This document shows, in pieces, positions 6,674-49,968 of a DNA stretch of 64,000 nucleotides. A program made the position numbers and the translations under genes. The DNA is from an uncultured Candidatus Melainabacteria bacterium (GTDB lineage: Bacteria; Cyanobacteriota; Vampirovibrionia; Gastranaerophilales; Gastranaerophilaceae). How positions within the stretch are numbered: the stretch's first letter is position 1; the number at the start of each line of letters is the position of its first letter. The notes under the pieces were generated by a model. That model did not search any database and was not told where the DNA came from. It saw only the letters and a list, made by a program, of their open reading frames with translations. The DNA lies in the NCBI GenBank assembly GCA_947570135.1, contig CANOTP010000004.1, forward strand, positions 1 to 64,000, written 5' to 3'.

Positions 6674-6739
6674 GGATAAAGGGGTAAATATAAAAGATTT
6701 ATCGTCCAAATAGCAAAATAAAAAAAAGGAGAGATAAGT

Positions 6740-7509
6740 ATGAAAAGTAAGGCAATGATTGAATTTTCGGGGGGGGTAACTTTTACTGCTCTTTAGGGTT
6801 CACGCTCGCAGAAATATTAATTACCCTTGGAATAATCGGTGTGGTTGCTGCAATTACAATCCCGGGATTAATTCAAAATGCAAAAAACAGAGAACGACAG
6901 GTTCAACTGCAAAAAGCATATTCCGATTGGAACCAGGTTGCTACAAAGTTTATGGACGAACATGACGAAACTTTGGGTTCATATATTCGCCGAAATGGCG
7001 GTCAACCGACTATGTTTGAATTAACCAAACAATTTACAACAAGAACTTATAGTGGTACAGCTTGGGGAGATTCTTACAAGCGATATACATTAGACGGAAC
7101 AGTTGTACCGGGCGGGCAACCATGTGATGATACAAGTAAGTATTCAGAAATTCAAGGACAGATATTTAATATTGATATAGTCCAAAATCCTAAATTTAAC
7201 GGACCGAGATTATGTATTGATATAAACGGAAAAGACAAACCTAACACATTTGGAATAGATATTTTCAGTTTTATATTTACTACTGACGGTCACGTAATTC
7301 CTGAAGGGCAGCCTCACCCTGATAATGACTATAATCCCGGAGGTTGGTCAGTAGGAGCAACGGTAAAAGCTTCTGCGGATAACTGTAAAGCGGGATCATC
7401 CGTTATTAATACTCTTGGGTGTACATATTTTGCAATAAATGACAAAAGCCCGACAGGACACGGGTCTTATTGGAAAGATTTTATCGGTAAAAAACAGTAT
7501 AAAAAATAA
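6740..7509 (+). CDS. Prepilin-like gene interrupted by a poly-G frameshift in its leader (possibly phase-variable)
   Basis: A strong ribosome binding site (AAAAGGAG) and ATG at 6740 open a leader MKSKAMIEFSGG that runs through eight G (6769-6776) and stops at TAG 18 codons on. The prepilin frame, with GFTLAEILITLGIIGVV from 6796, is the +1 phase. Nine G (or six) would fuse them into a 256-residue protein with a 20-residue leader. From 6796 to the TAA at 7509 the frame is intact, with the shared motif IDINGKDKPNTFGID and a PTGHGSYWKDFIGKK tail. It is close to the HTH-paired prepilin at 9397. As read the gene is off. Phase variation, programmed slippage or a homopolymer error are the alternatives. 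Confidence 0.7.
6769..6776 (+). repeat. Poly-G tract (8 G) in prepilin leader
   Basis: Eight consecutive G in AT-rich DNA inside the leader codons, in the context TTTCG(8)TAAC. The same tract and flanks recur at 30725-30732 and 49222-49229. Seven G would read GGG-TAA and stop at once; nine would open the prepilin frame. Confidence 0.9.
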
Positions 7510-9396: not shown

Positions 9397-10131
9397 TTAT
9401 TTTTTTGTATATAGTTTTTTCCCTATATAATCTTTCCAATAAGATCCGACTCCTGTCGGGCTTTTGTCATTTATTGCATAATAAGCACAAGTTAAAGTCG
9501 ATTCTGCTGTTGTTCCGGGTTTACAATAATCAATCGAAGCCTGTTTTGTTCCTCCTGTACTCCAACCTGCTTTAGAGTTATCTGCATGATATTGACCTTC
9601 AGGAATCACCGCTCCGTCTGTTGTAAAAAGAAAACTGAATATGTCTATACCTAAAGTGTTAGGTTTTTTATCAGGACCATTCAAATCAATACATAAACGC
9701 GGTCCATTTTTCGGTACAGAAAATAACCCGTCAATTTGATAAAAATACCCGCCCATATTGTAATTACGTCTGTTCCAGGTATCATCACATGGTTGATTCG
9801 TTTCTGTTAGTTTAATACCGCCCAGACTGAATTTTTGATTATATGGACGAGCAGCAATACGTTGTACTCCTGTGCCTGTAGAATATTTGTTTAATTCATC
9901 CAATAAAAGCTGAACATCTTTGTTTTCTGCTGCAAAACCTGGAACAGATTGTTCATGATCATCCATAAATCGTCTTGAAACCTGATTCCACTCCGAATAA
10001 GCTTTTTTTAAACGTACTTGAAATTCTTTATTTCTGGTATTTGCAATCAAGTTTGGAATTGTCATTGCAGCAACCACTCCGATTATTCCAAGTGTGATTA
10101 AAACCTCAGCAAGAGTAAATCCTTTCTTCAT
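9397..10131 (-). CDS. Type IV prepilin-like / pseudopilin protein (HTH-paired, copy B)
   Basis: A 244-residue prepilin-like protein beginning MKKGFTLAEVLITLG, with Gly/Phe cleavage site, Glu5 and a hydrophobic helix through IPNLIA. The C-terminal domain has QPCDD, GPRLCIDLNGPDKKPNTLGID and SPTGVGSYWKDYIGKK. It is the close paralogue of the poly-G gene at 6740, sharing FMD-H-E, the motif block and the tail. The start at 10131 removes a five-residue extension and places the basic leader in the normal position after AAAGG. It faces the XRE gene at 10258 across three repeats. Confidence 0.9.
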   Translation of the reverse strand: MKKGFTLAEVLITLGIIGVVAAMTIPNLIANTRNKEFQVRLKKAYSEWNQVSRRFMDDHEQSVPGFAAENKDVQLLLDELNKYSTGTGVQRIAARPYNQKFSLGGIKLTETNQPCDDTWNRRNYNMGGYFYQIDGLFSVPKNGPRLCIDLNGPDKKPNTLGIDIFSFLFTTDGAVIPEGQYHADNSKAGWSTGGTKQASIDYCKPGTTAESTLTCAYYAINDKSPTGVGSYWKDYIGKKLYTKK

Positions 10132-10170
10132 TTCTTGACCTTTCATATTAATAACTTTGTTGTTTGATAT

Positions 10171-17019: not shown

Positions 17020-17304
17020 ATGGCAGATAACTTTACCTTTAACAGACCCTATAAACCCTTCGGAATGAATGTCCAGGTGCCTGAACGTACAATTCAGCAG
17101 GCAGGACAGACATTAGAAGAACTTGTAAAAGCTCCGACGGCGCCATTATTTGAGTTTTTGGAAGAGAATGAGGGTGTGTTTAACGGTGATGTAGCCTTTG
17201 AGATAAACAAAACGGTTGCTCAAAACTTTACGATTGGTTCTGCGATGAGGATTGAAGATGAAAAAGTAAACGGCCGCAACCCGAGCTTTGATATGCATTT
17301 CTAG
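17020..17304 (+). CDS. Unknown 94-residue protein
   Basis: A small acidic protein without a recognised family: MADNFTFNRPYKPFG at the start, a helical ERTIQQAGQTLEELVK segment and ending NPSFDMHF. AAGAGG precedes ATG at good spacing. It has neither a signal peptide nor a membrane helix. It stands alone just before the GC-rich repeat patch. Reality of the gene rests on the ribosome site and the ordinary codon use. Confidence 0.6.
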   Translation: MADNFTFNRPYKPFGMNVQVPERTIQQAGQTLEELVKAPTAPLFEFLEENEGVFNGDVAFEINKTVAQNFTIGSAMRIEDEKVNGRNPSFDMHF

Positions 17305-17374
17305 CCCGCCGAGCAGAGCCATGAGCAAAGCGAGAGTTGAACACGCGTCGGCAAGACGTTGAGTCTTGACGCAA

Positions 17375-17509
17375 GTGTGAACGGTGGCGTTTAACGCGAG
17401 GTGGAGCCGAGGTCCTCGCCGGACGGGGTACTATGCTATAAATGGTTTTGCAATTTGTAGGGGCATTGTGTAGTTTTTAGTGTGAGCGTTGGCGTTTAAC
17501 GCAAGGCGG
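17375..17509 (+). repeat. Direct repeat pair with GCGTTTAACGC core
   Basis: Two 30-base copies (17375-17404 and 17480-17509) differing at four positions, each containing the small palindrome GCGTTTAACGC. The spacing is 105 bases. Confidence 0.8.
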
Positions 17510-17516
17510 GGGGGGG
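17508..17516 (+). repeat. Poly-G run (9 G), intergenic
   Basis: Nine consecutive G at the right edge of the GC-rich patch, overlapping the second direct repeat. Unlike the three prepilin tracts it does not follow an ATG with a ribosome binding site. Confidence 0.85.
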
Positions 17517-17620
17517 AAATATTATTGGAGGTAGGATTTTTTCTACATTATTCTATCGGCTATTGTAAAAATTTTTAATTTATTTTTTATAATATGTTAT
17601 AGTTAAATGTGGAGGAAATT

Positions 17621-18010: not shown

Positions 18011-18708
18011 TGGAAAATTTAACACAATTATTTTCAAGTCAAACAAGTATTTTTCTTTTGTTTTGGGCGTCGTTTTTAGGCGGTTTAATTTCATCGATTT
18101 CTCCGTGTTCGTTGTCGATGTTACCGTTGATTATTGGTTATATCGGCGGATTTAGCGAAGAAAAACCTTTAAAAACTTTGGTTCAAATGATTTTCTTTGT
18201 AATCGGTACGGGTATTGTATTTTCCGTAATCGGTGCCATTTGCGCAATTACAGGGAAGATGTTTGTCGGTAACCCTTATTTTGCCTTAATTGTTGCGTCA
18301 ATCATTATGATTATGGCATTAAAAATTCTCGGGGTTATTGAGTTTGAACTGCCTGTGATGGTTAAAGAAATTCCGCAGAATAAAGCAAATAACGAGTTTT
18401 TATATCCGATTTTGTTGGGGGCAGTGTTTGCGCTAATCGGTACACCTTGTTCTACACCGATTTTGGCAAGTATAATGGCGTTTGCGTCGATTTCAGCTAA
18501 AATAAGTCAGGCTATTTTGATGTTATTCCTGTTTTCAATCGGGCAGGGGTTAATCTTTATCGTTGCAGGCTTTATTACTTCGAAAGTTAAGACTAATCCT
18601 AAGTTTTATGAGTTCTCCGAAAAAATTATGAAAGTCAGCGGATTTTTGCTGCTGTTGGTGTCAATATATATTTTTTATAAGATTTTTGGCGCAGTCCTTG
18701 TAAAATAA
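18010..18708 (+). CDS. CcdA/DsbD-type thiol-disulfide membrane transporter
   Basis: A 232-residue protein with six predicted membrane helices. The two active cysteines lie in the family contexts SPCSLSMLPLIIGY (about residue 33) and IGTPCSTPILAS (about residue 142). CcdA proteins carry reducing equivalents from cytoplasmic thioredoxin to periplasmic thioredoxin-like partners. The partner is the gene directly upstream, with which it shares a TAATG overlap. Confidence 0.88.
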   Translation: MENLTQLFSSQTSIFLLFWASFLGGLISSISPCSLSMLPLIIGYIGGFSEEKPLKTLVQMIFFVIGTGIVFSVIGAICAITGKMFVGNPYFALIVASIIMIMALKILGVIEFELPVMVKEIPQNKANNEFLYPILLGAVFALIGTPCSTPILASIMAFASISAKISQAILMLFLFSIGQGLIFIVAGFITSKVKTNPKFYEFSEKIMKVSGFLLLLVSIYIFYKIFGAVLVK

Positions 18709-30695: not shown

Positions 30696-31212
30696 ATGAA
30701 AAAGCAGACTACAGTTAGAATTTCGGGGGGGGAAACTCTTATTCGACTTATAGAAGTGATAAGATAACATTACCGCTTTCGAGCTATAATAGTAGATTTA
30801 GTATGCAGAACGAAGCTGTTCTTATATTTCCACGAAAAGATGTCAGTGGTTTAACGGGTGATTGTATTCAAAATATGGCAATGAATCAAAAAGGATTAGG
30901 TGAATATGGTAATGGCAGTATATATTATGGAACTATCAACACGGTTGCGGAGAGTTTTATGTAGATTTAAACGGTAGGTCTGCTCCTAATCTTGTTGATT
31001 TTGATACTTTTTTATTTAAGATTGTTACCGACGGAATTGTTCCTGCGGGAAACTCAAAAGAAAATATTTGGACTCAAACTTTTAAAGAACAATGTTTGAA
31101 GCACTCAAACGGTTATGGCGGACATTGTGCTGTTTGGGTTATAGAAAACAAAACCATGGATTATCTGCATTGTAAAAACTTAAGCTGGACGGGCAGCCGA
31201 AGCTGTAGATAA
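30696..31212 (+). pseudogene. Prepilin pseudogene with poly-G leader fused to the C-terminal half
   Basis: AGGAG and ATG at 30696 open the leader MKKQTTVRISGG with eight G (30725-30732). In the nine-G phase the leader runs straight into the middle of a prepilin (SYSTYRSDKITL...CIQNMAMNQKGL); the GFTLAE signal and first helix are missing. About one base is lost near 30934, after which YVDLNGRSAPNLVDFD and LSWTGSRSCR continue to TAA at 31212. The body matches the pseudogene at 23856. It cannot make a normal prepilin with any G count. It shows that the leader can be joined at different points of a prepilin gene. Confidence 0.8.
30725..30732 (+). repeat. Poly-G tract (8 G) in prepilin leader
   Basis: Eight G in the context ATTTCG(8)AAACTCTT, matching the tracts at 6769 and 49222. 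Confidence 0.9.
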
Positions 31213-43112: not shown

Positions 43113-45035
43113 ATGAAAAATAAAATTAGAGAAAAGTTAATTGCAGGTCTTATGTTATCCGCTTTCGTGGTAACAAATTCTTTAACTGCAGCAGTTGCAA
43201 TGGAAGATTATTCTAACGGGTACGGTGCACCTTTGTTAAGAACAGGTGAAGCTGTTTCTGTCGGGTTACATGTTGAAGAAGATATTCCTAATGCAGATTC
43301 TGTCGTAAACTTAAGTTTAAGGGATGCTGATGTTAAGCAGGTTTTAAGAATGTTTGCCGATCAGGCAGGTATGAATATTATCTTCACCCCTGATGTTGAA
43401 GGTCAAATCACAATGGATTTGGTTGATATTCCGTTAAAAGAAGCGTTGAGTTTAGTAGTTAAAACAAGCAAGTTATACTATGATATCAAAGCTAATACAT
43501 TGGTTGTTTCAACTGAGGAAAATTCTTTATCTTTAGTTGACCGAAATCAAAATATGACAATCATTCCTGTTAAATATGTCAACGCTGTTGCAATTTCTTC
43601 ATTCTTAAATAAGAGTGTCTTTTCTCCAAAAGGTAAAGGTGCAGTAAGACCGGGAATGTCAAACGGTTTTATCGTTGCAACCAACCCTGCTACAAACGAA
43701 CTTATTGTTACAGGTACGGATAAAGACTTAGCGTTAGTCAGAAGAGTTGTTGATCAATTTGACAAAAAACCGACACTTACAACGTTTAAAGTAAATCATA
43801 CAACTCCTGCAGAGATGTCAAACTTGATTTGTACATCTTTATTCCCGTCAATGAGTGTGTTAGATCCTGATGATTCGTCTTCTGGCGGAGCTGCAGGTAT
43901 TCCTACAGGTTTTGCATCAGATGATAGCAGTGGCGGCGGAGACAGCGGAAGCGGTATTTCTGTTGGCGGCGGTAAGTTAGCTTGTGCTTTATCTTGGCAG
44001 CAAAAAACAGAAGAATCTTCCGGAGATGAAGAAACTTTCTCATTAAGCAGTTTACCTTTATTGAACCTTTCAGTATCATATTTCCCAACATTAGGTACAA
44101 TTCAGGTACTGGGCGGTTCTGATTCTCAAATCGAAATGATTAGAGATTATATTGCTGCTAATGATAAAAAAGCTCCTCAAGCATTTTTGGAAATTCAGAT
44201 TATTACGTTATCCGAATCAGGCAGTAAAACATTTGATAATACCTGGTCTTATATGAGTAAGAACTTCTCGTTCAATGCTGATAAAGGTAACGGATTTAGT
44301 ACAATAAACCCTATATTCTTATCAGGAAAAGGTTATTATTCTTATGATAAAGAATCTTGGGATGCTGATAAGGGTTCAGGTCCAAAACCTTGGGAAGGTT
44401 ATGAAACAAGCGGTTGGACAGGTAAATCCTATCAGGCTTCACATTTACATTACGCAGTTAATTACCTGATTGAAAATAATAAAGGCCGCGTACTTGCTAA
44501 TCCGAAAGTCCTTTTAACAAGCGGTCAGCCTTCAGTAATCGACTTAACTTCAGATTATGTATCTAAAGTAACAACTCAATACTTGGATAACGGTACGGCG
44601 GCAGGTTCTGCTCAAGTTCAACGTGATGTTGAAGTTTCTGATGATAACGGTATTAAAGTTACGGTTACACCTTTTATCAGTCCTGACGGCTATGTAACTT
44701 TAGATATCGCACCAAATTATAAAACTATTAAAGAAAAATATTATACAGACGGTGAAGCAGGTAAAGACTTGGCTGCAACATTACTTCAAAGAAGTGACTT
44801 GAACCTTAAAGGTATTCGTATCAAAGACGGTGAAACTATGGTTATCGGCGGTATGATTCAAGAAGGTGAAACAAAAACAGTTTCAAAAATCCCGTTCTTA
44901 GGTGACTTACCTGTAATCGGTATGTTCTTCAGAAGTACATCTACAGGTAAATCTAAAGAAGAAATGGTTGTAATGATTACTCCGCAAATCGTTGTTGACA
45001 CCGAAGATGCGGTTGCAGACGATAATATGCTGTAG
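43113..45035 (+). CDS. pilQ: Secretin (PilQ/GspD family)
   Basis: A 640-residue outer-membrane channel subunit. It has a signal peptide (about 1-30, ending AVAM), an STN-like N0 domain (about 68-130: LRDADVKQVLRMFADQAGMN), an N1-like domain, a Gly/Ser-rich insert with acidic stretches (about 255-315) and the C-terminal secretin domain (about 345-630): RVLANPKVLLTSGQP, VTVTPFISPDGYV and FLGDLPVIGMFF. It forms the exit pore for pili or secreted proteins and sits between the PilP-like gene and the ATPase gene. Confidence 0.93.
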   Translation: MKNKIREKLIAGLMLSAFVVTNSLTAAVAMEDYSNGYGAPLLRTGEAVSVGLHVEEDIPNADSVVNLSLRDADVKQVLRMFADQAGMNIIFTPDVEGQITMDLVDIPLKEALSLVVKTSKLYYDIKANTLVVSTEENSLSLVDRNQNMTIIPVKYVNAVAISSFLNKSVFSPKGKGAVRPGMSNGFIVATNPATNELIVTGTDKDLALVRRVVDQFDKKPTLTTFKVNHTTPAEMSNLICTSLFPSMSVLDPDDSSSGGAAGIPTGFASDDSSGGGDSGSGISVGGGKLACALSWQQKTEESSGDEETFSLSSLPLLNLSVSYFPTLGTIQVLGGSDSQIEMIRDYIAANDKKAPQAFLEIQIITLSESGSKTFDNTWSYMSKNFSFNADKGNGFSTINPIFLSGKGYYSYDKESWDADKGSGPKPWEGYETSGWTGKSYQASHLHYAVNYLIENNKGRVLANPKVLLTSGQPSVIDLTSDYVSKVTTQYLDNGTAAGSAQVQRDVEVSDDNGIKVTVTPFISPDGYVTLDIAPNYKTIKEKYYTDGEAGKDLAATLLQRSDLNLKGIRIKDGETMVIGGMIQEGETKTVSKIPFLGDLPVIGMFFRSTSTGKSKEEMVVMITPQIVVDTEDAVADDNML

Positions 45036-45076: not shown

Positions 45077-47122
45077 ATGAATGCACTAATATTAAGATTA
45101 AAAAATAGTATTGATAAGAAAATACTCGATAGTATTGATAAAAATCTAATGGGACAACATAGTTTTGTCCCAATTAGTGTCAAAGATAATTTTCTTTTCG
45201 TAGCTGTCGGTAAAAACTCAAATAAAGATGAAATTAATAATATTTTAAAGAAAACTTTTCCTCAATCAATAAAATTTATGCTTGTTGGAGATGATGATTT
45301 AAAAGAATTATTAGCATCTTTGTTACCGCAATCAAGTCTTCCGAAAGAAACGGCACCAGCTTCTACTACAACATCTCAAGCTGCACCGACAGGTGAAAAA
45401 GTCGTTGGAAAACTTGGTGAAATCCTTATTTCAAAAGGTTTAGTGTCAGAAGTTGACTTGATGAAAGCCTTAGCGTCAGCCAAAAGAAGTGGAACTCCTA
45501 TCGGTTCAAAACTTTTTGAAATGGGATTAATCTCTTTAGATGATTTAAAATCCGTACTTCATGACCAATCGGGTTATGAAATGGTTTCTGCAACCCAATT
45601 AGTTGATCAGAAAAAATATGTTAACATCCTGCCTGAAGATTTTATTCGTGCAAATTCTGTTATTCCGATTTCTTCTGACGGTAAAACTCTTGTTTTAGGG
45701 GTTGTAAAACCTATCAAAATGGATGTTTTGAAAGAAATCATCTACTTAACGGGTTTAAGTCCTAAGCAGTTATTGATGACTCATTATGAGTTTCAAAACT
45801 CTTTAAATACTTTCTTCTCAGTACAGAAAAAGCAAACAGAAGAAATTATTGACCAAATTAAAGCTGAAACTATAGACTCAGAGGAAGAAGCAACTCTTTG
45901 GGAACAGGTTGACGCGGAGTTGCAAGATTCAACGGGTTCTGTTGCAAAATTTGTTAACCAAATTATTACAAACGGTATTGATAATAAGGTTTCCGATATT
46001 CACATAGAACCGAGATTATCAGGTTATATTGTCAGATACAGAAAAGACGGTATGCTGCAAAAAGTTCTGGATGTTCCGGCTAAAGTTGAAACCTCTGTTA
46101 TTGCACGTTTCAAGGTTATGGCGAGAATGAATATCGCAGAAAACAGACGACCTCAGGATGGTACCTTCTCAATATCATATAAAGATTGTTCTTATGACTT
46201 CCGTATCAACACGCTTCCTGTTTCAGGTAAAGAAAAGGTCTGTATCCGTATCTTGGCGCCTGCGGTTTCTCTTGCATCAAATGATAAAGAGATTAAAATT
46301 GTTGGTGCAGCAGAACGTGATATTCAAAAACTTAAACAAATGGTATCTTGTCCGAACGGTATTATCCTAACCTCAGGTCCTACAGGTTCAGGTAAAACAA
46401 CGACCTTGTACTCAATTTTGAAAAGTTTGAATGATGAATCTGTTAACATTACAACGATTGAGGACCCGATAGAAATTAAGTTGGAAGGTATTAACCAATC
46501 TCAAATTAACGCAAAAGCGGGTATTACATTCGCATCTTGTATGCGTGCAATCCTTCGTCAAGACCCTGACATCATTCTGGTCGGTGAAATCCGTGACTAC
46601 GAAACTTTGGAAATCGCAATTTCAGCAGCATTGACAGGTCACTTGGTATTAAGTACAGTCCACACCAACTCGGCAGCGGCAACAGTTACCCGTATGATTG
46701 AAATGGGTGCAAAAGACTATTTGGTATCTTCAACTTTATCAGGCGTAATTGCTCAACGTCTTGTAAGAAGACTTTGCGATGATTGTAAGGAAGAATATTA
46801 CCCGACACGTGAAGAAGCTGCAATGATTACAACGGATAAAGATGAAATCGAACAGCTTATGAAAACTCCGCTATACAGAGCAAAAGGCTGTAACAAATGC
46901 GGATTCCAAGGGTACAAAGGACGTCTGGGTGTTTATGAAATCATGCAGATAACAAAAGAAATTAAAAAACTTATCGCACAAGGTGCTCACGATTTGGAAA
47001 TCGAAGAAAGTGCGGTAGCAAATGGAATGACAACATTAAACAGATCTTGTTATAACCATATCTTAAACGGAATGACTACAATTGAAGAATTTGTCAGAGT
47101 CTTGGGTATGGCAGGTGAATAG
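45077..47122 (+). CDS. pilB: Type IV pilus / type II secretion assembly ATPase
   Basis: A 681-residue GspE/PilB-type motor. Two N-terminal GspE-N domains (about 1-230) lead to the ATPase: Walker A GPTGSGKTT near residue 434, the Asp box around IEDPIEIKLEG, Walker B in DPDIILVGEIRDYETLE and the His box TVHTNSAAATVTR. A zinc-type tetracysteine (CDDC...CNKC, about 565-615) is present, as in extension ATPases rather than PilT retraction ATPases. No PilT is in the window. It is followed by pilC twelve bases on. Confidence 0.95.
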   Translation: MNALILRLKNSIDKKILDSIDKNLMGQHSFVPISVKDNFLFVAVGKNSNKDEINNILKKTFPQSIKFMLVGDDDLKELLASLLPQSSLPKETAPASTTTSQAAPTGEKVVGKLGEILISKGLVSEVDLMKALASAKRSGTPIGSKLFEMGLISLDDLKSVLHDQSGYEMVSATQLVDQKKYVNILPEDFIRANSVIPISSDGKTLVLGVVKPIKMDVLKEIIYLTGLSPKQLLMTHYEFQNSLNTFFSVQKKQTEEIIDQIKAETIDSEEEATLWEQVDAELQDSTGSVAKFVNQIITNGIDNKVSDIHIEPRLSGYIVRYRKDGMLQKVLDVPAKVETSVIARFKVMARMNIAENRRPQDGTFSISYKDCSYDFRINTLPVSGKEKVCIRILAPAVSLASNDKEIKIVGAAERDIQKLKQMVSCPNGIILTSGPTGSGKTTTLYSILKSLNDESVNITTIEDPIEIKLEGINQSQINAKAGITFASCMRAILRQDPDIILVGEIRDYETLEIAISAALTGHLVLSTVHTNSAAATVTRMIEMGAKDYLVSSTLSGVIAQRLVRRLCDDCKEEYYPTREEAAMITTDKDEIEQLMKTPLYRAKGCNKCGFQGYKGRLGVYEIMQITKEIKKLIAQGAHDLEIEESAVANGMTTLNRSCYNHILNGMTTIEEFVRVLGMAGE

Positions 47123-47133
47123 TAGGTGGAATT

Positions 47134-48348
47134 ATGACGATTTATAATTATACGGCTATAGATAATGCAAATAAATTGGTAAAAGGTAAAGTTGAAGCTG
47201 ACGATTTAAGAGCTGCCCGTGCGGCGGTCAGAGATTTAGGTTTCACTCCGACTAATATAACAGAAGAACAATCTGTTAAAAAAGAGGTTAAAAAGCCGAC
47301 TGCAGGTAAGATGCCAAAACTTGGTTTAAAAGAGCAGATAGATTTTACATCTACTCTTCAAATTCTTGCTGCTGCGGGTATTCCGATTATTGAATCTTTA
47401 TTGTTTATAGAAAACGATGCGGCAAAATTAAAAATCAGGCAGTGTGCAACGGAATTAAGACGCCAAATCATGAATGGCGGAACTTTTGCGGGTACAATTG
47501 CAAAATATCCCGAACAGTTCGGACAGGTTTACATCGGTCTTGTAAGAGCAGGGGAAGACGCCGGTGAATTGGAAAAAACTCTTGACCGTTTATTAGAACT
47601 TTTGAATAAGCAAGACGCAATCAGGGGTAAAGTTATCGGTACACTAATGTATCCGGTATTCGTTATTTTGCTTGCTGTATTTATCATTATCGTCATGCTT
47701 GTGTTTGTATTCCCTGTATTTAAAGAAATGTTTGACTCAATGGGGATGCAATTACCTTGGATTACAAGAGTATTAATGAACATGGGCTTATTCTTGAAGA
47801 AACAATGGTATACAATTCCTCTGGGGTTTGCGGCTGTAACATTCTTTATTAACTTCCTGTTCCGTTGGAAACCTAGTAAATGGAAAATTGATGAATGGGT
47901 TTTGAAAATCCCTGTATTGCAGGATTTGATTCAGTACTCAAACTTTGCAAACTTCATAGCGGTTATGCAGGTAGCGTATGATGCGGGTGTTCCGATTTTG
48001 GAATGTTTGTATTTGTCTAATATGACATTAACCAATCATACCTTAGAGACAAGGGTCGAAGAAGCTACAGTAAGGGTTCAACAAGGTCAGCACTTGTCAG
48101 CAGCGTTGCGTGCAACAAGAACTATGCCTAAGATGATTCTGTTTATGATTGCAACAGGTGAACAATCAGGTCGTCTGGGAGATATGTTAGGTCAGGCAAC
48201 AAATTATATTGATAAACAATTAGATACGATTATTGATATTATGACAAAGATGATTGAGCCGATAATGCTTGTCGTAATCGGTACAATCGTACTTATTTTG
48301 GCTGCAGCATTGTACTTACCGCTGTTCGCATCATATATGGGTATGTAA
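47134..48348 (+). CDS. pilC: Pilus/secretion inner-membrane platform protein
   Basis: A 404-residue GspF/PilC-type platform protein. Two GspF domains (about 70-190 and 275-395) each end in membrane helices; three are evident (about 168-190, 220-242, 375-398). QIDFTSTLQILAAAGIPIIE and LVRAGEDAGELEKTLDRL are typical. It transfers subunits into the growing filament under the PilB motor. Its stop overlaps the SDR gene as TAATG. Confidence 0.94.
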   Translation: MTIYNYTAIDNANKLVKGKVEADDLRAARAAVRDLGFTPTNITEEQSVKKEVKKPTAGKMPKLGLKEQIDFTSTLQILAAAGIPIIESLLFIENDAAKLKIRQCATELRRQIMNGGTFAGTIAKYPEQFGQVYIGLVRAGEDAGELEKTLDRLLELLNKQDAIRGKVIGTLMYPVFVILLAVFIIIVMLVFVFPVFKEMFDSMGMQLPWITRVLMNMGLFLKKQWYTIPLGFAAVTFFINFLFRWKPSKWKIDEWVLKIPVLQDLIQYSNFANFIAVMQVAYDAGVPILECLYLSNMTLTNHTLETRVEEATVRVQQGQHLSAALRATRTMPKMILFMIATGEQSGRLGDMLGQATNYIDKQLDTIIDIMTKMIEPIMLVVIGTIVLILAAALYLPLFASYMGM

Positions 48349-49192: not shown

Positions 49193-49968
49193 ATGAAAAA
49201 ACAGACTATGATTGAAATTTCGGGGGGGGTAACTCTTTAAGCTCCTCGGTCGGACGGGGCATCATGCCACCAACGGTATTTACACGACTTCAACAGTTCA
49301 GCTCTGCAAGGAAGGGATTCACTCTTGCTGAGGTATTAATCATCCTCGGAATTATCGGGGTTGTTGCAGCGATGACTATTCCTAATCTTATTGCCGCGAA
49401 TCAAAAAAGGGTTACAGTGACAAAGTTACAAAAGGCAATTTCTGTAATTAATCAGGCATATCGCTTATCTTATGAAGAAAACGGGGATGTAAATGCCGAA
49501 GAAGCAAAAGCTTTAGGTGCAGAAGACTATTTTAAAAAATATTGGGAACCGTATATAAAATTGCATACATTGTGTAAAACCTATCAAATGTGCGGTTATA
49601 AATCTCAAACCCCGTTTAAATATTCTAACGGTAGTGCTTCCGGAATGAATTTTATTCACATAAACAGAATAGAATTTTTAACAATGGACGGTTTTTTATA
49701 TATTATTGCGACTGCAGGCGGTGATAAGAATGATGCTATGAAAGAATTATTTGTAGATATAAATGGAGGACACGGTCCAAACAAATTTGGTCGCGATGTT
49801 TTTGTTTAGGATAGAATACCTGACGGTAAGGGAGTTCAACCTTACGGATATAGTCGTGAAAATGCGTATATTAATAGCCAATGTTCAGAATTATTTTTGG
49901 GATATACGTGCGCAGAAAAAATTAAGCGTGCAGGCTGGCAGATTGATAAATCTTATCCGTGGAAATAA
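49193..49968 (+). pseudogene. Prepilin-like gene with poly-G leader and an in-frame TAG
   Basis: AAAGGAG and ATG at 49193 open MKKQTMIEISGG with eight G (49222-49229) and stop at TAA after 15 codons. With nine G the leader continues in phase through a GC-rich stretch and RLQQFSSARKGFTLAEVLI, giving a leader of about 42 residues; an in-frame ATG at 49264 could also start it. The body is the paralogue of prepilin A (3646), with VDINGGHGPNKFGRD. At 49807-49809 a TAG interrupts DVFV, and the same frame then runs on through PYGYSRENAY...SYPWK to TAA at 49968. So there are two lesions, one of which is reversible by slippage. Confidence 0.75.
49222..49229 (+). repeat. Poly-G tract (8 G) in prepilin leader
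   Basis: Eight G in the context ATTTCG(8)TAACTCTT, matching the tracts at 6769 and 30725. One extra G joins the leader to the prepilin frame. Confidence 0.9.

Follow-up and report, generated by a model that had tools for sequence, protein, structure and literature searches.

Poly-G tracts in the leaders of a large type IV prepilin family of Gastranaerophilales: probable phase-variable switches

The Locus and Its Neighbors

The locus considered here lies at positions 6740-7509 of the window, i.e., the whole 64-kb stretch of DNA that was analyzed, and its elements are listed in Table 1 together with the related features found in the same stretch. A sequence-only reading of this DNA had described a strong ribosome-binding site, an ATG, eight G and an early stop, followed by an intact prepilin one phase away that nine or six G would restore and that stays open to the end of the locus; all of this is seen in the sequence. 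The prepilin frame (GFTLAEILITLGIIGVVAAI...) contains no ATG, GTG or TTG from the tract to FTLAE and meets a stop immediately upstream of the G8 tract. Having no start of its own and being closed upstream, this prepilin would thus be reachable from the leader ATG only via G9 or G6.

Table 1. Features of the prepilin locus and of related pilus genes in the window
Feature	Positions	Strand	Basis or remark
Shine-Dalgarno AAGGAG of the leader	6726-6731	+	sequence
Leader codons ATGAAAAGTAAGGCAATGATTGAATTTTC, ten after ATG 6740	6740-6768	+	the genome has about 40 leaders like it
G8 tract, frame junction	6769-6776	+	prepilin in frame with the ATG solely at G9 or G6
TAG closing the leader frame in the current OFF state	6794-6796	+	
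Intact type IV prepilin frame, G|FTLAEILITLGIIGVVAAI..., 237 aa	6796-7509	+	TIGR02532 above cut-off; one phase off the leader frame
Paralogous prepilin, ordinary short leader, no-tract class	9397-10146	-	55% identical to the 6796 prepilin; PF07963
Second leader with G8 (30725-30732), before a pilin remnant without N-terminal helix	30696-30732	+	
Secretin (PilQ/GspD type)	43113-45035	+	PF00263
Assembly ATPase (PilB type, T2SSE + MshEN)	45077-47122	+	PF00437, PF05157
Platform protein (PilC/GspF type)	47134-48348	+	PF00482
Third leader with G8 (49222-49229)	49193-49229	+	
Third-copy prepilin, in-frame TAG at 49807-49809	49309-49809	+	PF07963 match 49234-49809

The product of the 6796 frame carries a G|FTLxE cleavage motif and, after it, a hydrophobic helix, as expected of a type IV prepilin, and scores 17.6 bits with TIGR02532 (cut-off 16.3). 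PF07963 gave no match on 6778-7509; it does match the paralog on the minus strand and the third copy. In the structure model the N-terminal helix is 52 residues long, while the head is modeled with low confidence (pLDDT 70) and has no PDB match at E < 0.001. Pilus machinery is encoded within the window, namely a secretin, a T2SSE ATPase and a T2SSF protein. The predicted label of type IV prepilin comes from the N-terminal motif and from these secretin, PilB and PilC genes, and the heads would presumably be part of a type IV pilus or a pseudopilus.

The repetition of leader and tract at 30696 and 49193, pointed out in the same reading, is real, both copies carrying G8; the damage in the two copies had been overlooked. 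At 30696 the FTLAE helix is missing and the frame is broken further downstream; at 49193 the frame is interrupted by the TAG and continues open past it. The PilC/GspF-type gene lies 845 bases upstream of this third leader, on the same strand.

A Family of Prepilins With a Common Leader

Long G runs are more numerous in this DNA than chance predicts: 1.27 +/- 1.27 overlapping GGGGGGG matches are expected in the window, which holds nine, a count reached in 0/100 shuffles. In about 460 kb sampled, prepilin leaders account for 8 of the 11 runs of at least seven G on either strand.

Where the sequence-only reading described one gene, the genome holds about 40. A protein search of the 1.9 Mb genome returned 127 matches, with roughly 120 prepilin-type N-termini, about 40 of which begin with this leader. 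When leader and tract were searched together at up to three mismatches, 38 matches were obtained in the 1.9 Mb, and most of those that were read precede prepilins. At a first look with the same prepilin search, many same-genus relatives gave 7-41 candidates, vs. 137 in the window's genome.

All 38 matches lie on the contig plus strand, where GC skew was positive in 18 of the 20 stretches sampled, and the minus-strand prepilins that were read have ordinary short leaders. In another genome (G007), the locally G-rich strand carries 21 of 24 poly-G prepilins vs. 5 of 12 ordinary ones. This distribution suggests a leading-strand preference of the poly-G prepilins.

The leader and the N-terminal helix are common to the copies, while the upstream flanks share 32% nucleotide identity and the heads about 25% amino acid identity. 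Furthermore, several contigs of the window's genome end within the leader repeat or its tract, with overlaps of exactly 55 nt (C2/C15, C15/C5), and the ends of C1 (G8) and C3 (G9) have a 55-mer in common, with near-identical leaders. This geometry is suggestive only, since it may reflect either unresolved repeats or length variants, and is no proof of polymorphism. Both the mosaic of common and differing parts and the contigs that stop inside the leader repeat would suit a reservoir of silent donor cassettes, in which OFF copies recombine into a few expressed pilin loci and the tract merely silences the donors. Donors of the Neisseria pilS type are without a promoter, a start and an N-terminus or full-length frame of their own. 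Every copy here, on the contrary, has its own Shine-Dalgarno sequence, start, full-length frame and full prepilin N-terminus, and no single expressed master locus was identified. We therefore regard this explanation as distinctly improbable, although a role as donor reservoir may coexist with phase variation.

The family extends beyond this genome. Searching 383 genomes of the order, from 52 genera, for G8 or more at a short spacer from the prepilin motif, poly-G prepilins were found in 72 genomes and 15 genera of Gastranaerophilales. The position of the tract is constant across lineages, and the leader sequences are unrelated. A motif scan of genome contigs returned one other Melainabacteria MAG, which also appears among the same-genus relatives, and a divergent Candidatus Scatousia copy; matches in two unrelated taxa were taken as chance, and no leader motif was found in viral contigs. 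On this recurrence the window's genome is assigned to the Gastranaerophilales ("Melainabacteria"), gut-dwelling relatives of the cyanobacteria.

Selection on the Prepilin Frame

The frame was followed from the tract to the cleavage site in 126 distinct copies from many genomes. The prepilin frame has a single stop over 1990 codons, vs. 213/1935 and 179/1879 (about 10%) in the other two, and both wrong frames are closed by stops in 107 of the 126 copies. That the prepilin frame is free of stops over this segment implies that the segment is translated in that frame. Alternative starts downstream of the tract are ruled out, since 101 of the 104 short spacers lack any start codon in that frame. 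Followed upstream from the tract, the same frame reaches a stop before any start in 108 of 126 copies. In most copies, then, translation is predicted to enter the prepilin only through the tract.

The bodies themselves have been kept. Of the 30 tract prepilins scored in the window's genome, 29 are open for at least 150 aa, vs. 23 of 25 with ordinary leaders. As these bodies are intact though most are out of frame, the OFF copies are not decaying, and must consequently be expressed at some times. The damage in two of the three window copies would fit decaying pseudogenes behind a common dead leader; the 29 intact frames and the spacers nearly free of stops over 126 copies make this extremely improbable, and it is refuted for the family as a whole.

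The sole broken body among the 30 (L001 at C1:328885, 44 aa after the motif) belongs to an in-frame G9 copy, one of the two scored in this genome.

Tract Length and Predicted State

Among 133 copies with a Shine-Dalgarno sequence and a start, which are related within a genome and hence do not count as independent, the prepilin is in frame in 11, displaced by +1 in 66 and by +2 in 56, with tracts of 7 to 15; in-frame copies thus fall below one third of the total. In the window's genome (G000), 22 of 27 scored copies have G8 and two of 27 are in frame, with G9; lengths 7, 8 and 9 stand side by side. G11 is the rule in G007 (31 of 39 copies), where 0/39 are in frame; most copies of G040 have G8, and tracts in G055 span 11 to 15. 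In a wider sample, of about one copy per genome, lengths were 8 to 14 and all three frames were represented. The prepilin family is accordingly predicted to be mostly OFF, the arithmetic differing from one species to the next. As in contingency loci, the tract lies in the reading frame and its length would set the ON or OFF state, read here from sequence and not from expression.

Homopolymers are error-prone, and Ns stand inside the tract of one G007 copy (L211), so that a miscall, with the true tract in frame in most copies, has to be considered. The error, however, would need to be -1 in G000 and G040 yet +1 in G007; G7, G8 and G9 occur in a single assembly; and the exact 55 nt contig overlaps point to a de Bruijn assembly of short reads, a method that resolves G8. 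We consider miscalling very improbable.

The sequence-only reading had proposed counting G in related genomes. Lengths of 7-15 are seen across copies and relatives, and they differ, with a change of frame, between near-identical orthologs. Three ortholog pairs were compared, the first two more than 99% identical, all from species other than the window's own. In the first (L247/L248), 1901 aligned bp contain four substitutions elsewhere and indels solely at the tract edges, one member being OFF and the other ON. The second (L246/L281) is 99.45% identical over 1637 bp, with one indel, at the tract, and the loci diverge outside that stretch. In the third (L252/L297) the leader is identical and the tracts are G11 and G12, both OFF. 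The length therefore differs at the same locus between close relatives, a further mark of contingency loci, and judging by these three pairs it changes at an evolutionary scale. The outcome named beforehand as adverse, G8 in all relatives over a decaying frame, is not what is observed: lengths vary and the bodies are intact.

How the Frame Could Be Joined

We hold it fairly probable that this is slipped-strand phase variation, by poly-G tracts, of a large type IV prepilin repertoire that is mostly OFF, and the tracts probably act as random on/off switches for surface fibers. Translation would begin at the leader ATG, and slipped-strand mispairing at replication would alter the G count. The G|FTLAE prepilin would be linked to the leader at one length in three; at the others, translation would hit a stop, usually within a few codons. 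With about 40 prepilins, a common leader, strongly diverged heads and nearly all copies OFF, cells would differ in their pilins or show none. Length changes would be frequent in a population, and would control display and pili, presumably with a benefit to the bacterium.

The earlier proposal of a phase-variable prepilin caught in the off state holds insofar as the copy is OFF, the tract is the sole junction between start and gene, lengths range from 7 to 15 and no decay is seen. What counts against it is the near-uniformity within a genome, G8 in one and G11 in another. Length is near-constant even among copies with differing leaders, and this exceeds the uniformity expected of a free-running hypermutable tract: G11 should wander between 11 and 12, both OFF, yet G11 predominates in G007. 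The rarity of in-frame copies also speaks against slipped-strand mispairing, as does the presence of MutL in the window's genome and its relatives, which gives no sign of repair loss raising slippage and leaves loss of mismatch repair unsupported as its cause.

The same uniformity of length and offset could be taken as a sign of programmed, non-genetic slippage, in which slippage of RNA polymerase or of the ribosome along the Gs would yield a low, steady amount of fused prepilin from unchanged DNA. The genes are intact despite a near-universal wrong-frame state, and G_GGG_GGG would allow a -1 shift. The offsets, however, are opposite in two genomes, G000 needing -1/+2 and G007 +1/-2, which rules out frameshifting in a fixed direction, and overall the two wrong frames are about equally common (66 vs. 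56). The codon phasing of the tract varies by species as well (leaders of 28, 29, 30 and 36 nt); with both offsets common and leader length modulo 3 variable, the signature of a programmed -1 ribosomal frameshift is lacking. No stable RNA structure was found 3' of the tract (mean z -0.13, 30 copies), some copies already stand in frame, and tracts vary in length between orthologs. Programmed slippage is thus possible, if unlikely.

A related scheme would have the frame locked genome-wide: dozens of prepilins would be held one base out of frame by a fixed tract, with a trickle of product via RNA-polymerase or ribosome slippage, so that every cell would be a low-level pilin mosaic, and the leader cassette would spread from gene to gene by copying and be retained on the leading strand. 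This we consider unlikely.

Precedents and Significance

By analogy, the closest precedent for phase variation of these prepilins would be the G-tract pili switch of Bifidobacterium breve, where in bbr_0113 and bbr_1889 a tract of about 11-12 G stands between a secretion-signal ORF and the pilin body, and where maximum-depth sequencing showed that tract length decides whether the two are joined (PMC9187656). Both cases concern a gut bacterium and a G tract that joins, or here would join, a signal part to a pilin. B. breve, however, is Gram-positive, with sortase pili and usually one or two loci per genome, whereas the present genes are type IV prepilins, in tens of loci and in a different phylum, and their tract lies inside the prepilin leader.

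The opa genes of Neisseria have CTCTT repeats where the leader peptide is encoded, and these turn each locus ON or OFF independently (PMC3960869). As here, a whole set of surface genes carries a slippage tract in that part of the gene; there, however, the repeat is a pentamer, about a dozen loci at most are involved and the products are outer-membrane adhesins, while here a homopolymer lies in pilins. Neisseria pilC carries a G9-20 tract within its reading frame (PMC5953494) and, like the present genes, is a type IV pilus component governed by coding-frame poly-G. PilC is a tip or retraction protein in one or two copies, whereas here the pilin-type subunits themselves would be affected.

The phase-variable loci of Campylobacter are of mixed functions. 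Here, by contrast, almost every tract sampled belongs to a single gene family, and the genome encodes MutL. The Campylobacter phasome is presented as a large set of contingency genes under repeat control in a small AT-rich genome (PMC6321876), a likeness to the many tract-bearing genes found here in a small AT-rich genome.

The present system differs from these precedents in scale (tens of pilins per genome), in its prepilin-leader target, in its taxon and in its near-complete OFF state. A search of the open literature returned no description of such a switch in Melainabacteria or Gastranaerophilales, and in the descriptions found, phase-variable pilus loci number one or a few, vs. tens per genome from one family. 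The hosts belong to a gut order that is uncultured and has genomes of 2 Mb; tracts of this kind are met in 15 of its genera, within leaders of unrelated sequence. If switching is real, pilus diversity would be decided in each individual cell, and annotation software will have truncated or dropped many such genes as apparent frameshifts. Metagenome reads allow tract switching to be tested without culture.

Inserts and Other G Runs

Inserts of 60-240 bp stand between tract and cleavage site at 49230-49310 and in L002, L004, L008, L022, L024, L033, L086, L092, L093, and L122. They are dispersed, partly palindromic repeats, open in the prepilin frame, and are reminiscent of Rickettsia palindromic elements. 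Another dispersed repeat (CACGCGTCGGCAAGACG...GGCGTTTAACGC), at 17300-17520, is followed by a G9 run that is not in any prepilin, and related sequence occurs at contig ends C8 and C12 of the window's genome. Near 18302 (L105; C4:118302, minus strand), an in-frame G9 run lies in an apparent non-prepilin coding sequence (MSGNLFSNIGAPKIAKNPSGGGIS...).
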